Assembly: GCF_006547065.1 (NCBI RefSeq)
Contig: NZ_CP041243.1
Span: forward strand, 2,681,001 to 2,745,000
Length of the DNA stretch: 64,000 bases
Source of the DNA: Brevundimonas sp. M20
Lineage (GTDB): Bacteria; Pseudomonadota; Alphaproteobacteria; Caulobacterales; Caulobacteraceae
Direction: 5' to 3'
Part shown: in pieces, positions 39,870 to 45,311 of the stretch
How the letters are laid out: the number at the start of each line of letters is the position of its first letter
Position numbering within the stretch: the stretch's first letter is position 1
Notes under the pieces: generated by a model
The model's input: the letters and a program-made list of their open reading frames with translations, nothing else
Told to the model about the DNA's origin: nothing
Database searches by the model: none
Position numbers and translations under genes: made by a program

Positions 39870-42764
39870 CTAATCTCCGTCGCGAAGCGGCGGCAGCGCC
39901 CTGTCGAACGCCCCGCGCGCGGCGCGGCGGACCTCGGCCAGACGCGCGGTGAGACTATCGAAATCGGGCGATCCGGCCGCCTCGGCCAACCGTCGCCGGA
40001 ACCCTTCCGGTTCGTTCGACGGGTCGCCCGGATCGTCAAAGGCGGCGGCCAGCACCTGCCCAAGCGCCTGTTGCAGACGCCAGGCCTCCGCCAGTTCCGG
40101 TTCTCCGGTCAGGGCCTCAAGGGTGGAGACCGTCAGCGGCTCTCCGATCGCGGCGGCCTGCAACTGGCTGACCTGGGCCACGAACTCGGCATCGACCTGA
40201 CCGCCGGGCGCCAGCTTGAGATCCCACGCCCCCTGCCCCGGTCGCTCGCGCTCCATCAGATCCCGCATCCGCCGGGCGTCGGCGGCGATGTTCACGCCCG
40301 GTCGCGGTCGACGCAGGATCGCCTCCAGCATGGCGGCGACCTCGGTCCCGAAGGCCTTGTCGTCCGTCCAGACCACGCGAGCGCGCGTCAGGGCCATGAA
40401 CTCCCATGTGTCGCCTTCAGCCGCATAGTAGTCGCGCAGAGCCGACAGCCGCAGGGAGACCGGGCCCTTGGCCGCGCCCGGACGCAGCCGCATGTCCACC
40501 TCATATAGCCCGCCTTCGGCGGTGTGGGCGGACAGGGCCGCGATCAGCCGCTGGGTGAACCGGGAATAGAAGACCCCCGCCGCCCATCCCTTGCCCGACG
40601 ACACGACATCCGCCGGCGCCTCGTACAGGGTCATCAGGTCCAGATCGGAGCTGGCCCGCATCTCACGCGATCCGGCCTTGCCCAGGGCGATCACGGCGAC
40701 CCGACCGCCGGGCAGGGTTCCGCCCTGCCGCTCCGCCTCGGCGAGGGCCGCCGGCGCCAGCGCCGCCATCACCGCGTCCGCAAGCTTGGTCAGCGCCTGT
40801 CCCGCCGCCTCCGGCCCGGCCCGTCCGGTCAGGATCTGCAGGCCGATACGGAACATCTGATCCCGGTGGATGCGGCGCACGGCGTTCATCGCCGCCTCGA
40901 AATCAGGCGCGGCTTCGGCCTCGGCCAGCATCTGCTCGGTCAGGCCAGAGTCTTCCTCCAGATCGCGGGCGAAGCGGGCGTCCAGCATGCTGTCCAGCGC
41001 CGCCGGATATCGCCCCAGCGCCCGCGCCAGACGCGGGGCGAAGGCCATGACTCCGACCACCAGTTCGAACAGGCGCGGCTGATTGAGGAACAGGGCCTGC
41101 ACCTGCACGCCGGCGTTAAGTCCGGCGAAGAAGACGGCGAAGCGGCGGAAGGCGTCGTCGGCCGCCCCGGTGTCCGCCAGCGCGGTCAGCAGACGGGGCG
41201 CCAGCCGGGTGAACAGTTCCCGGCCCCGCGCGGTGCGGGTCGCGGGGATGCGGCCGTGGTGCCAGCTGCGGATGGTGTCCGCGACGGTCGCGGGCTCCGG
41301 GAAGCCCATGCGCGCGAGCGTCTCCAGCGTCTCCGGATCGTTCTCGACGCCGGTGAAGACCAGCGAACCATAGGGTGACGACAGTTCCTCCTCACCCTCG
41401 AACAGTTCGCCGTAGCGACGATTCACCCCGACCAGCAGGGCCTCGACCCGGGCGTCGAAGACGGCCAGATCGCCCTCCCCCGCCAGTGCGCCGACGGCGG
41501 CGCGACGGACCGGATCGACCGGCAGGCTGTGCGTCTGCTCATCGTCCAGCATCTGGACCCGATGCTCCAGCCCGCGCAGTTCGACATAGGCGGCGGTCAG
41601 TTCCTCGCAGACCCCGGCCTCGATATGACCGTCGTCACGCAGGGCGGCCAGCGCCTCGACAGTGCGTGGCTTCCGCAGCTTCGCATTGCGGCCGCCGAGG
41701 ATCAGTTGCTGAGTCTGGGCGAAGAACTCGATCTCGCGGATGCCGCCGCGCCCGAGCTTCAGATTGGCCCCGGCGGCCTCCAGTCCCTCGCCGGTCTTGT
41801 GGACATGGATCTGTCGCTTGATGGACTGGATGTCCAGGATGGCCGGATAGTCGAGACTGCGCCGCCAGATGAAGGGCGCCAGCGCCTTGATGAAGGCCTT
41901 GCCCTCGCGGATATCCCCGAGCATGGCGCGCGCCTTGATGAAGGCCGCCCGCTCCCAGTTCTGGCCGACGCCCTCGTAATAGGTCAGGGCGAAGGGCACG
42001 GCGACGACCGGCGGGGTCGAGGACGGGTCCGGGCGCAGGCGAAGGTCCACCCGGAAAACATAGCCGTCGCCGGTCCGCTCCTGCATCAGGGTGGCGAAGG
42101 CGTGGGCCAGCCGATCCACGAACCGCTGGGGCTCCACGCCGTCGGCCAGGGCGGTGATGAGCACCTCCGGCGCCCAGAACAGACTGATGTCGATATCCGA
42201 CGAGTAGTTCAGTTCGTCCGCGCCATGCTTGCCCATGGCCAGACCGAACAGACCGGGGACGGGCCCGCGCTTGTCGTCGGCCTTGGAGATCAGCTTGCCC
42301 CGCTCACGCTGGTCATGCGCAACCGCGGACAGGGCGGCGCGAGACGAGATGTCGGCGAACCGGCTCAGGGCGAGGGTGACCTGATCCAGATCCCACACCC
42401 CGCCGAGATCGGCGAGGGCGGTCAGCAGGTGCAGCTCGCCCTTCAGCCGACGCAGCGGCGAGCGCACATCGTCCGCGCCCCCGGTCAGGGCGGCGGTGCG
42501 CCTGAGCACATCCGCCAGACGCACATCCGGCCCCTGCTCCAGCAGGGCGCGCAGGGTGTCTGGCCAGCGTCGGGCGATGCCGAACAGATAGGGCGAGGCG
42601 GCGAACACAGGCTCCAGCGCCGCCCAACTGGCCGCCAGCGTCTCGCGCCAGCCGCCCTCGTCCGCGGCCTCGGACAGACGCTCATGCGCGCGGGCGGCGG
42701 CGGCTTGATCCAGCACCGGCCCGCAGGGCTTCAGCGCCGCGACGGCCTGAGCGGCGTCCGTCAT
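39870..42764 (-). CDS. glnE: Bifunctional glutamine synthetase adenylyltransferase/adenylyl-removing enzyme
   Basis: The 964-aa protein has two nucleotidyltransferase domains. The N-terminal deadenylylase contains GKHGADELNYSSDIDI (about residue 190) and the C-terminal adenylyltransferase contains GKAGSREMRASSDLDL (about residue 700), each with the family's G-x-x-x-x-x-E ... S-D-x-D pattern, separated by the RIHRDQMFRIGLQILTG linker. It tunes glutamine synthetase to nitrogen supply with GlnB. The start overlaps the upstream histidine kinase stop by 4 nt. Confidence 0.95.
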   Translation of the reverse strand: MTDAAQAVAALKPCGPVLDQAAAARAHERLSEAADEGGWRETLAASWAALEPVFAASPYLFGIARRWPDTLRALLEQGPDVRLADVLRRTAALTGGADDVRSPLRRLKGELHLLTALADLGGVWDLDQVTLALSRFADISSRAALSAVAHDQRERGKLISKADDKRGPVPGLFGLAMGKHGADELNYSSDIDISLFWAPEVLITALADGVEPQRFVDRLAHAFATLMQERTGDGYVFRVDLRLRPDPSSTPPVVAVPFALTYYEGVGQNWERAAFIKARAMLGDIREGKAFIKALAPFIWRRSLDYPAILDIQSIKRQIHVHKTGEGLEAAGANLKLGRGGIREIEFFAQTQQLILGGRNAKLRKPRTVEALAALRDDGHIEAGVCEELTAAYVELRGLEHRVQMLDDEQTHSLPVDPVRRAAVGALAGEGDLAVFDARVEALLVGVNRRYGELFEGEEELSSPYGSLVFTGVENDPETLETLARMGFPEPATVADTIRSWHHGRIPATRTARGRELFTRLAPRLLTALADTGAADDAFRRFAVFFAGLNAGVQVQALFLNQPRLFELVVGVMAFAPRLARALGRYPAALDSMLDARFARDLEEDSGLTEQMLAEAEAAPDFEAAMNAVRRIHRDQMFRIGLQILTGRAGPEAAGQALTKLADAVMAALAPAALAEAERQGGTLPGGRVAVIALGKAGSREMRASSDLDLMTLYEAPADVVSSGKGWAAGVFYSRFTQRLIAALSAHTAEGGLYEVDMRLRPGAAKGPVSLRLSALRDYYAAEGDTWEFMALTRARVVWTDDKAFGTEVAAMLEAILRRPRPGVNIAADARRMRDLMERERPGQGAWDLKLAPGGQVDAEFVAQVSQLQAAAIGEPLTVSTLEALTGEPELAEAWRLQQALGQVLAAAFDDPGDPSNEPEGFRRRLAEAAGSPDFDSLTARLAEVRRAARGAFDRALPPLRDGD

Positions 42765-44176
42765 GCCTCCGCCGCCGGCAGGACCAGCGCCACGCGCAGG
42801 CCGGGGCCGGAGCCTTCATAGGCGCCGGGACCTTCATCCAGGGTGATGCGCCCGCCGTGGGCCTCCATCACCGCGCCGACCAGCGACAGGCCCAGACCCG
42901 AGCCGGGCTCGGTGCGGCTGTTGTCCAGACGGACGAAGCGCTGGATGACGCGCTCGCGGTCTTCCTCGGGCACGCCCGGACCGGTGTCGGTGACCGAGAA
43001 CTCGATCTCGCCGGACGAGCGCCGCCGGGCGCGCAGCATGACCGCCCCGCCCACGGGCGTGTACTTGATCGCATTGTCGATGATGTTGGCCAACGCCTGC
43101 GCCAGGAAAGGCTGGTTGGCGTTGACCGTCAGGCCGCGCTCGATCTCGGCCGAGAACTCCAGCCCCTTGTCCTCGCTGGCGGGCTCGTAGAGCTCGGCCA
43201 TGTCGGCGGCCAGATCCGCCGCGTCGAACAGGGCGGGGTCGGGGATGCGCCCCGAACCGGCGGCGGCCTGAAGCCGGGCGATGGCCAGAACGGTGTTGAA
43301 GGTCTTCAGCAGGTCGTCGGCCTCGGACAGGGCCAGCTCCAGCGCCTCGGTTCCGTCGATCTTGCCCGCCTCGGCATCGATCAGCGCCACCTCCAGCTTG
43401 GCCCGCATCCGGGTCAGGGGAGAGCGCAGGTCGTGGGCGATGGCGTCACCGGCGTGGCGGATGGAGGCCATCGAGCTCTCAAGCTGATCCAGCATCCCGT
43501 TGAGGCCCTGCCCCAGCTCGTCCCACTCGTCGCCGGAGTTGCGGACCACGGCGCGGGCCTTGAGGTCGCCCTCCTGCACGGCACCGACGACGCCCTTCAG
43601 CCGCCCCATGGCGCGTTCCAGATTGCGGCTGACCAGCAGCCCGCCCGCAAGCCCGAGCAGCAGAACGATGCCCATCGCCCCCCAGAGCGCCTGCGTCAGA
43701 CGGCCCAGATAGGCCTCGATGTCGCCCATAGACTGACCGACGAACAGCATCTCCCCGCCCGACAGCCGAACCTGCACGCCCCGTACCTGCGGCCGGATCA
43801 CCCGCCCGTCGGGAAGGTTGTCGGTCATGGGGAAGGTCACCCACTGGACGCCCTGATTGTATTGCTCGATCGGGGACATGGTCAGGCTGCCGGTGATCCG
43901 GCTGCCGTCCCGCTCCATCAGCAGATAGACGAAGCTGCTGCGGGTCAGGGTCCGGTCGATCAGCGCCCGGTTCACGGCGTCCAGACCGCGCTGGTCATAG
44001 ATGCCGCGCAGCACCTGAAGCTCGCCCCGCACATCCTGCTCGGCCCGCACCCGCGCCTCGTTGGCCGAGGCGATGTAGACATAGGCCAGCACCGCGCTGG
44101 CCGCCGCGGCGAACAGGGCGACGAACAACAGGGTCAGCCGGAAGGGCGTCCGACGAAGGAGGGAGGGCAGACGCAC
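42761..44176 (-). CDS. Sensor histidine kinase of a two-component pair (split from its regulator by an insertion)
   Basis: The 471-aa kinase has TM1 (about 12-35), a periplasmic sensor, TM2 (about 165-188), HAMP, H-box DAIAHDLRSPLTRM, N-box NIIDNAIKYTPVGG and G-box DTGPGVPEEDR / GSGLGLSLVGAVMEAHGG. GTG at 44176 is chosen; its G is also the last base of the DUF559 stop TAG. The cognate response regulator is 44640-45311, with the DUF559 element between. Downstream, glnE starts inside its last codon. Confidence 0.9.
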   Translation of the reverse strand: MRLPSLLRRTPFRLTLLFVALFAAAASAVLAYVYIASANEARVRAEQDVRGELQVLRGIYDQRGLDAVNRALIDRTLTRSSFVYLLMERDGSRITGSLTMSPIEQYNQGVQWVTFPMTDNLPDGRVIRPQVRGVQVRLSGGEMLFVGQSMGDIEAYLGRLTQALWGAMGIVLLLGLAGGLLVSRNLERAMGRLKGVVGAVQEGDLKARAVVRNSGDEWDELGQGLNGMLDQLESSMASIRHAGDAIAHDLRSPLTRMRAKLEVALIDAEAGKIDGTEALELALSEADDLLKTFNTVLAIARLQAAAGSGRIPDPALFDAADLAADMAELYEPASEDKGLEFSAEIERGLTVNANQPFLAQALANIIDNAIKYTPVGGAVMLRARRRSSGEIEFSVTDTGPGVPEEDRERVIQRFVRLDNSRTEPGSGLGLSLVGAVMEAHGGRITLDEGPGAYEGSGPGLRVALVLPAAEA

Positions 44177-44184
44177 TAGGCTTC
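44176..44184. repeat. 9-bp direct repeat, left copy (putative target-site duplication)
   Basis: CTAGGCTTC, exact copy at 44640-44648. On the minus strand it reads GAAGCCTAG and supplies the last two codons and stop of DUF559. It also ends with the G that begins the kinase GTG. Confidence 0.75.
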
Positions 44185-44574
44185 TCCCTCCCCGGCACGG
44201 GGAGGGTGGTCGGCGCGCAGCGACGACCGGGTGGGGCGGGCAAGGCAACGCATCCGCACCTGTTCAATCACTTCCTGAACCCTGTCCCGCACAGCCTCAT
44301 TACTCACCCGAAACGTCAGAAAGCCCAGCCGCGCAAGCACCGCATCCCTGACCCGATCCTTGCGCGCCCGGTCTTCATCTCTGTGCGACGCTCCATCGAC
44401 TTCAATGATCACAGCTCGATCCAGACACACGAAGTCGAGAATGTATCCCCGCTCCGGGTGCTGCCTTGGGAAATGCAGACCTTCCTGACGAAGCTTACGC
44501 AGCCTCACCCAGAGCCGCGCTTCGGCGGGCCTCATTGCCTTCCTGAGGGCCCTTACCCTGGCGATGACGGCCAT
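44176..44574 (-). CDS. DUF559 endonuclease-like protein (Vsr/PD-(D/E)XK fold)
   Basis: The 132-aa protein begins MAVIARVRALRKAMRPAEARLW and contains RQHPERGYILDFVCLDRAVIIEVDGASH with D47, E58 and D60 as the probable metal-binding PD-(D/E)XK residues. DUF559 belongs to the Vsr/restriction-endonuclease-like group. Its start lies just at the inner edge of the right inverted repeat and its last ~20 residues are translated repeat (RADHPPRAGEGEA). Stop TAG comes from the 9-bp duplication. It is the only gene in the insertion. Nuclease activity is unproven. Confidence 0.85.
   Translation of the reverse strand: MAVIARVRALRKAMRPAEARLWVRLRKLRQEGLHFPRQHPERGYILDFVCLDRAVIIEVDGASHRDEDRARKDRVRDAVLARLGFLTFRVSNEAVRDRVQEVIEQVRMRCLARPTRSSLRADHPPRAGEGEA
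44186..44249. repeat. Left inverted repeat of the DUF559 unit, GC-rich palindromic
   Basis: CCCTCCCC-GGCA-C-GGGGAGGG forms a hairpin, followed by the GGTCG...CGACC-like palindrome and GGGTGGGGCGGGC, then AAGGCAAC. It is the imperfect inverse of 44575-44632, differing by small indels (for example GGCAC versus GGCA). It encodes the C-terminus of DUF559 on the minus strand. Confidence 0.75.
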
Positions 44575-44632
44575 GTTGCCTTAGCCCTCCCCACCCGGTC
44601 GCTGCGCGACCACCCTCCCCTGCCGGGGAGGG
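44575..44632. repeat. Right inverted repeat of the DUF559 unit
   Basis: GTTGCCTT(A)GCCCTCCCCACCC, then GGTCGC-TGC-GCGACC (a perfect 6-bp hairpin), then ACCCTCCCC-TGCC-GGGGAGGG (8-bp hairpin). Reverse-complemented it aligns with the left copy over about 60 positions with a few single-base indels. The 44633-44639 bases (AAACCAC) separate it from the right 9-bp repeat. Confidence 0.75.
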
Positions 44633-44639
44633 AAACCAC

Positions 44640-44648
44640 CTAGGCTTC
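44640..44648. repeat. 9-bp direct repeat, right copy
   Basis: CTAGGCTTC, identical to 44176-44184. On the minus strand it is the last two codons and stop of the response regulator (GAA GCC TAG). Confidence 0.75.
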
Positions 44649-45311
44649 CAATCTATAACCTGCGCCCCGGACCGTCTGCAGCATCGCCTTGTCGAAACCC
44701 TTGTCGATCTTGGCGCGCAGGCGGCTGATGTGGACGTCGATGACGTTGGTCTGGGGGTCGAAATGATATTCCCACACCTTCTCCAGCAGCATGGTGCGGG
44801 TCACCGACTGGCCGGCGTGGCGCATCAGGAATTCCAGCAGCTGGAACTCGCGCGGCTGCAGGTCGATCTCCTGACCGGCGCGGTGCACGGTGCGGGCGAT
44901 GAGGTTCATCTCCAGATCGCCGACCTTCAGAACGGTGGCGACCGAGCCGGTCTCGCGGCGACGCGACAGGGCCTCGACGCGGGCGATCAGTTCGGCGAAG
45001 GCGTAGGGCTTGACCAGATAGTCGTCGCCGCCAGCCTTCAGGCCCACGACGCGATCCTCGACCTCGCCCAGCGCCGACAGGAACAGAACCGGGGTCTGGT
45101 CGCCGTCCTTGCGCAAGGTCTCGACCATGCCGATGCCGTCCAGACGCGGCATCATGCGATCCACGACATAGACGTCATAGCCGCCCTTCTGGGCTTCCAG
45201 CAGGCCGAAGGCGCCGTCGACGGCGTGGGTCACATCGTGACCGGCCTCGGTCAGTCCCCGGACCATCGCGGTCGCGGCCTCGGCGTCGTCCTCGACCACC
45301 AGAATGCGCAT
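44640..45311 (-). CDS. OmpR/PhoB-family response regulator
   Basis: The 223-aa regulator has a receiver domain with phospho-acceptor Asp51 in YVVDRMMPRLDG, acidic pair in ILVVEDDAE and the K in LVKPYAF, then a winged-helix effector (QPREFQLLEFLMRHAGQSVTRTMLLEKVWEY split across helices). ATG at 45311, with AGGGG upstream, preferred over a TTG at 45332. Its natural partner is the kinase at 42761-44176, and the pair is interrupted by the DUF559 unit. Signal unknown. Confidence 0.92.
   Translation of the reverse strand: MRILVVEDDAEAATAMVRGLTEAGHDVTHAVDGAFGLLEAQKGGYDVYVVDRMMPRLDGIGMVETLRKDGDQTPVLFLSALGEVEDRVVGLKAGGDDYLVKPYAFAELIARVEALSRRRETGSVATVLKVGDLEMNLIARTVHRAGQEIDLQPREFQLLEFLMRHAGQSVTRTMLLEKVWEYHFDPQTNVIDVHISRLRAKIDKGFDKAMLQTVRGAGYRLEA

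Follow-up and report, generated by a model that had tools for sequence, protein, structure and literature searches.

In a 64,000-nt stretch of the Brevundimonas sp. M20 genome (contig NZ_CP041243.1, positions 2,681,001 to 2,745,000; referred to below as the window), the genes of a response regulator and a sensor histidine kinase are separated by a unit of 464 nt (44176-44639) in which a DUF559 gene is bounded by terminal inverted repeats. All of these genes lie on the minus strand, here called the gene strand. We put the probability that this locus holds a copy of a homing-like, selfish nuclease unit bounded by palindromes at slightly below one half. The existence of the unit, its fidelity to a site, its turnover and the frequent association of DUF559 genes with palindromes are shown by comparison of sequences from related genomes.

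Occupied and empty junctions

A DNA match to the regulator was obtained in 130 of the 131 genus genomes, in a few of them as paralogue-like matches or contig ends alone. Six of the 131 had no usable junction, and the 125 regulator/kinase junctions that could be parsed comprise 38 with DUF559 and 87 without it. The initial annotation of this stretch had anticipated empty-site alleles in relatives. They were found, among others in G111, which by its regulator DNA (94%) is the closest relative, and DUF559 at this locus is the state of a minority of junctions, not of most related species. The locus tree covers 121 of the 125 loci, four being left out, and contains 36 junctions with DUF559, 53 empty ones (at most 60 nt, some overlapping as TGATG) and 32 with other inserts. 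On the combined tree the DUF559 state changes 26 times, of which 20 changes are forced by well-supported branches, compared with 31.3 for shuffled labels; 25 changes are needed on the regulator-only tree (10 forced) and likewise on the kinase-only tree (19 forced). In one clade of ten genomes the unit is present in six and absent from four. When nine junctions were aligned, the empty ones of G013, G014, G015 and G020 were identical except at one base, the pattern that an ancestral empty state would leave. A search of named genomes returned 19 loci, nine of which (L251-L259; Brevundimonas, other Caulobacteraceae or alphaproteobacterial records) were at least 66% identical along almost the full protein, and DUF559 was flanked by the same two genes in all nine. 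As far as sequence comparison shows, a junction has the unit as a whole or lacks it. No transposase gene was seen on the gene strand of the unit, where the reading frame is DUF559 (an overlapping plus-strand open reading frame (ORF), 44206-44643, was not searched), and the idea of a transposase-less unit within an operon junction is supported.

The same junction accepts other sequences. At least two further families of palindromic inserts, of the GTGGCGAG type and the CCTCCCCCG type and about 127-160 bp long, occur there, for example at L128 (G061) and L113 (G128). With 32 of the 121 tree genomes carrying an insert other than DUF559, and with several insert families involved, the junction is therefore an insertion hotspot. 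In one case (L109, G033) a CCTCCCCCG-type miniature element is nested within a decayed element of the window type. Another junction (L098, G046) holds an insert of 686 nt with two small ORFs, presumably a BrnT/BrnA-like toxin-antitoxin pair.

Repeats, hairpins and the encoded nuclease

The DUF559 ORF, the inverted repeats and the TAGTG overlaps described in the initial annotation were all recovered. Inverted-repeat arms detected in the window include an 18-nt and a 17-nt arm with 94% complementarity. Each terminal repeat folds into two hairpins, with predicted energies as single-stranded DNA of −20.8 and −17.2 kcal/mol (z about −2.7), and only 2 of 200 shuffled sequences were as low for either repeat. 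Comparison of the 38 occupied junctions and the miniature elements indicates that the unit ends in YTCTCCC/GGGAGAR.

The protein belongs to PF04480 (E 7.2e-26; 90.6 bits against a curated cut-off of 20.6), and Pfam assigns it two nuclease-like profiles in addition to DUF559. Its predicted fold, an EDxHD/Vsr nuclease fold, matches the DUF559 structure 3HRL, the homing nuclease I-Bth0305I and Vsr. E18, D47, H64 and D73 are invariant in 13 sequences compared by alignment and not by residue-by-residue superposition. The nuclease core is under purifying selection, with a ratio of nonsynonymous to synonymous substitution rates (dN/dS) of 0.06-0.28 in 15 pairs that are not independent of each other. 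The tail encoded by the repeat shows no purifying selection; its ratio of nonsynonymous to synonymous differences (pN/pS) of 1.04 is a rough value from a short and unaligned tail.

Distribution across sites and taxa

DUF559 is carried by 123 of 131 genomes of the genus, by 63 of 192 at the level of the class and by 98 of 249 at that of the phylum. Repeat typing of 109 fetched genus copies left 41 that were not typed on both sides; because the pattern is strict, 15 of these, including the window's, show type A downstream only. For the 68 copies typed on both sides, the repeat type follows the protein clade, with 5 changes where the minimum is 4 and the shuffled mean 23. The 62 window-type copies occupy seven sites, several of these assignments resting on one matching flank, and require 6 site changes, which is the minimum. 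By this comparison of sequences, every window-type lineage is faithful to its own site.

Inverted repeats round DUF559 also occur outside the genus. In the class, flanking inverted repeats exceeded the same-locus control in 24 of 30 DUF559 loci (one per genome), and a score of 14 or more was reached by 22 of the 30 loci compared with 1 of 58 control segments. Further phylum loci gave 18 of 27 above control, and 14 or more in 15 of 27 compared with 1 of 54 controls; by their kinship labels, 13 of these 27 belong again to the class and 14 to other classes, 7 of the latter with a score of at least 14. Selection by similarity to the window's protein gave five loci from Desulfuromonadales/Geobacter, Nitrospiria and Burkholderiaceae, and all five score 19-35 against controls of 8.5-9.5. 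In the genus, where no same-locus control was used, 32 of 40 loci reach 14. Since these shares stay below 100%, a sizeable minority of DUF559 genes is without such repeats. The 9-bp direct repeats that the initial annotation suggested looking for round other DUF559 copies were not seen in the other occupied junctions compared.

Hairpins of the form CTCCCTCCCC-n-GGGGAGGGTGG were present in 99 of the 131 genus genomes, with up to 56 matches in one of them and many in inverted pairs, whereas the reversed control pattern gave zero matches in the 131 genomes. The 35 inverted pairs parsed among the matches listed are 113-162 bp long and have the same ends. A window-like DUF559, with a best E no higher than about 1e-30, occurs in 55 of the 131 genomes. 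The median number of hairpins was 7 in genomes with such a gene and 2 in those without, and after subtraction of two hairpins per unit it was 5 versus 2 (p=7e-4). In corrected counts, independent pairs on the tree divided 8.5 to 0.4 at a threshold of 3 (median p 0.012) and 9.0 to 1.8 at a threshold of 5 (p 0.039).

The flanks of 12 miniature loci were queried in eight genomes, and six loci were examined against relatives. The site of the L194 miniature is empty in G033, G010 and G036. A single hairpin composed of the two outer arms is found in G036 at the L198 site and in G030 at the L199 site, which is the product expected of a deletion between two hairpins. By eye, two miniatures lie at sites that hold DUF559 units elsewhere, L192 as in clade C and L194 as in clade B; the sequence beside L194 we take to be RNase P RNA.

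A proposed homing-like mechanism and its alternatives

In the mechanism that we favour, the unit consists of terminal inverted repeats with two hairpins each round a DUF559 protein of Vsr/EDxHD fold, with the reading frame running through one of the repeats. The nuclease may cut the empty allele or an allele with only a hairpin, and the break would be repaired from an occupied copy arriving by gene exchange, which amounts to homing. Hairpins might be the sites of recognition or processing, and the miniature (~145-bp) and single-hairpin forms could arise when sequence between hairpins is deleted. Occupied and empty alleles of one site together with site-faithful lineages, as known from EDxHD homing endonucleases, are found here, and nuclease-driven homing or transposition would best explain the sequence patterns. 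Exchange of the unit between genomes is likely, with the nuclease as its putative driver: the DUF559 tree rejects the locus tree (approximately unbiased (AU) test, p 2e-5; 33 of the 38 occupied taxa, five left out), and 10 of 17 strong splits are in conflict. Agreement of DUF559 is better with the regulator tree, where 3 of 17 splits conflict, than with the kinase tree, where 13 of 17 do.

Several observations weigh against this reading. The regulator and kinase trees reject each other as well (AU p 6e-8 and 1e-4; strong conflicts 2/9 and 2/15), so that ordinary recombination at the locus accounts for part of the DUF559 conflict, and for the most closely related DUF559 pairs the excess of similarity over that of their regulators is not significant (Fisher p 0.07). 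The corrected link between hairpins and DUF559 loses significance at a threshold of 8 (6.9 v 2.5, p 0.29), and 13 genomes without a window-like DUF559 have at least 10 hairpins; any dependence of hairpins on the nuclease is therefore loose. D47 is replaced by E in the G017 copy. This DUF559 protein is short (132 aa), whereas the EDxHD homing nucleases described in the accessible text of PMC3943268 have a long DNA-binding part. Lastly, cleavage and movement are processes that we infer from sequences.

Extending the favoured mechanism, DUF559 proteins as a class may tentatively be viewed as mobilising enzymes of palindrome-bounded elements and their miniatures across Pseudomonadota and beyond. 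Each nuclease would recognise the hairpins of its own lineage and spread the unit, chiefly through homing to the operon junction that it already uses, as a transposase-free counterpart of the REP-RAYT system (repetitive extragenic palindromes and their associated tyrosine transposases).

A hairpin-recognising transposition of REP/RAYT or IS200/IS605 kind, in which DUF559 moves the unit, and the miniatures in trans, without target duplication, appears doubtful to us. It would account for the six additional sites at which related units with the same type of repeat lie, for the wide occurrence of hairpins and their inverted pairs in the genus, for the association of hairpin number with DUF559 presence, for the lack of a consistent target duplication and for the inverted repeats round DUF559 in other classes and phyla. 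On the other hand, the DUF559 tree needs just one colonisation per site for the seven sites, so that jumps of the full unit to new sites must be rare, and the 13 hairpin-rich genomes mentioned above have no window-like DUF559. To our knowledge, nucleases of PD-(D/E)XK type have no strand-joining step.

We consider it improbable that DUF559 belongs to the host, perhaps as a mismatch-repair nuclease comparable to Caulobacter VsrA, and is a gene that merely lies between independently mobile palindromes and owes its patchy distribution to recombination and loss. Purifying selection on the core, the mutual conflict of regulator and kinase trees and the use of the same junction by other insert families are what such a gene would lead one to expect, and according to the accessible text of PMC12907096 Caulobacter VsrA, which has a DUF559 domain, is functionally linked to a cytosine methyltransferase. 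However, in both the class and the further phylum loci DUF559 has flanking inverted repeats much more frequently than control segments do, the type of repeat goes with the clade of the protein from site to site, and at the regulator/kinase junction the reading frame of DUF559 ends inside the terminal repeat.

The initial annotation had proposed insertion with a 9-bp target duplication. CTAGGCTTC indeed occurs exactly and only twice in the window (Table 1), where shuffles lead to an expectation of 0.07, and excision of 44176-44639 joins the junction as predicted, the gene strand then reading GAAGCCTAGTGCGTC. Yet the rarity of the 9-mer is overstated, because the regulator 3′ end GAAGCCTAG recurs in G091, which is occupied and has no second copy, and in the empty G100, and because TTC (44182-44184) is a conserved element end; a duplication would therefore comprise at most 6 bp (GCCTAG). 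In 37 of the 38 occupied loci (one left out), the longest string common to the own flanks averaged 4.43 compared with 4.32 for mismatched loci (p=0.22), and a mismatch-tolerant test on trimmed flanks gave 3.89 versus 3.76 (p=0.20). Against this, at least seven letters are common to the own flanks of the unit in 3 of 37 loci, compared with 3.3% of mismatched pairs, and a trimmed score of at least 6 is reached by 5 of 37 own flank pairs, compared with 6.1% of mismatched ones, so that occasional target duplication may occur. The 35 miniature elements had no consistent flanking duplication at the tested lengths of 2-6, 8 and 9 and offsets of 0-3. Other DUF559 copies share 7 bp at most across the unit, at two occupied loci (ATTTCTC in G112, GAGGCGT in G030). 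Thus, while terminal inverted repeats are present, the target site duplication of DDE transposons and insertion sequences was not recognisable across the 37 loci and 35 miniatures, and the 9-bp match most likely reflects chance plus shared coding ends. A conventional transposon insertion, for which the 9-mer, the two 7-bp matches and the few high-scoring flank pairs could be cited, is very improbable in view of average flanks that match no better than mismatched ones, the inconsistent miniatures and three of nine bases that belong to the element itself.

Coupling to the downstream gene

The unit was also thought to restore the translational coupling that its insertion broke. This is true of 29 of 38 copies at this junction and of 3 of 4 other copies in the same genome, but among copies fetched from other sites it applies to just 5 of 27 and 7 of 40. 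Coupling therefore appears to stem from selection acting locally in operons and not to be intrinsic to the unit. Two DUF559 paralogues of the window's genome, L001 (G000:C1:893943) and L004 (2153434), have stop codons that overlap the next start; their neighbours are presumably glyQ/glyS and astD/astB.

Relation to known systems and significance

In the literature on DUF559 (PF04480) proteins, including Caulobacter VsrA and N. gonorrhoeae 3HRL, as far as its accessible text goes, the family is regarded as a Vsr-like or homing-type nuclease and not as part of a repeat-bounded unit, and no description of such a unit was found in the accessible text of the open PubMed Central literature on DUF559 and its synonyms. 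Compared with the EDxHD homing endonuclease I-Bth0305I, the present protein is free-standing, lacks a long DNA-binding region, lies outside an intron or intein and is bounded by hairpin repeats. As in REP/REPIN-RAYT systems (REPIN being a paired REP element), palindromic repeats are found here, often as miniature elements of inverted pairs, and the repeat type is tied to the clade of the associated protein. Unlike there, the enclosed protein is DUF559 instead of a Y1 (HUH) transposase; no search for RAYT genes was made in the genome. The CIR repeats of Caulobacter, described in the accessible text of PMC2229807 as intergenic double-arm palindromes of about 110 bp with GANTC sites, are likewise double-arm palindromes between genes of alphaproteobacteria, but that text mentions no associated gene, and the comparison is one of descriptions only.

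DUF559 genes are common yet poorly explained. If many of them are parts of palindrome-bounded selfish units, a testable enzyme could be assigned to the GC-rich palindromes between the genes of these bacteria, and annotations as "Vsr-like repair" would need rereading. With close empty and occupied sisters, the presence/absence set of the genus makes homing directly testable.

Feature coordinates and minor observations

The features of the locus are collected in Table 1; the ends of the terminal repeats were set by comparison with other occupied junctions.

Table 1. Features at the regulator/kinase junction of the window
Feature	Position	Strand	Remarks
Sensor histidine kinase	42761..44179	-	HAMP, HisKA, HATPase_c; GTG start overlaps the DUF559 stop TAG as TAGTG
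CTAGGCTTC, copy 1	44176..44184	+	TTC is also the element end; CTA is the complement of the DUF559 stop
DUF559 ORF	44176..44574	-	132 aa; residues 1 to about 110 form the nuclease core, and the kinase-side repeat encodes the tail
Kinase-side terminal inverted repeat (TTCTCCCTCCCC...)	44182..44241		Hairpins 44186-44206 and 44208-44228
Regulator-side terminal inverted repeat (gene strand TTTCCCTCCCC...)	44584..44635		Hairpins 44613-44632 and 44597-44611
Response regulator	44640..45311	-	Response_reg and Trans_reg_C (Pfam)
CTAGGCTTC, copy 2	44640..44648	+	Lies over the final codons and the stop of the regulator gene

Elsewhere in the window's own genome, a window-type miniature element without DUF559 lies at about G000:C1:2436730-2436868 (L216), and two loci (L009, L020) with one matching hairpin each and part of the arm are possible further examples. 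A DUF559 lineage in G049, G083 and G052 (L175, L176 and L177) is located just upstream of a sequence that we take to be RNase P RNA.
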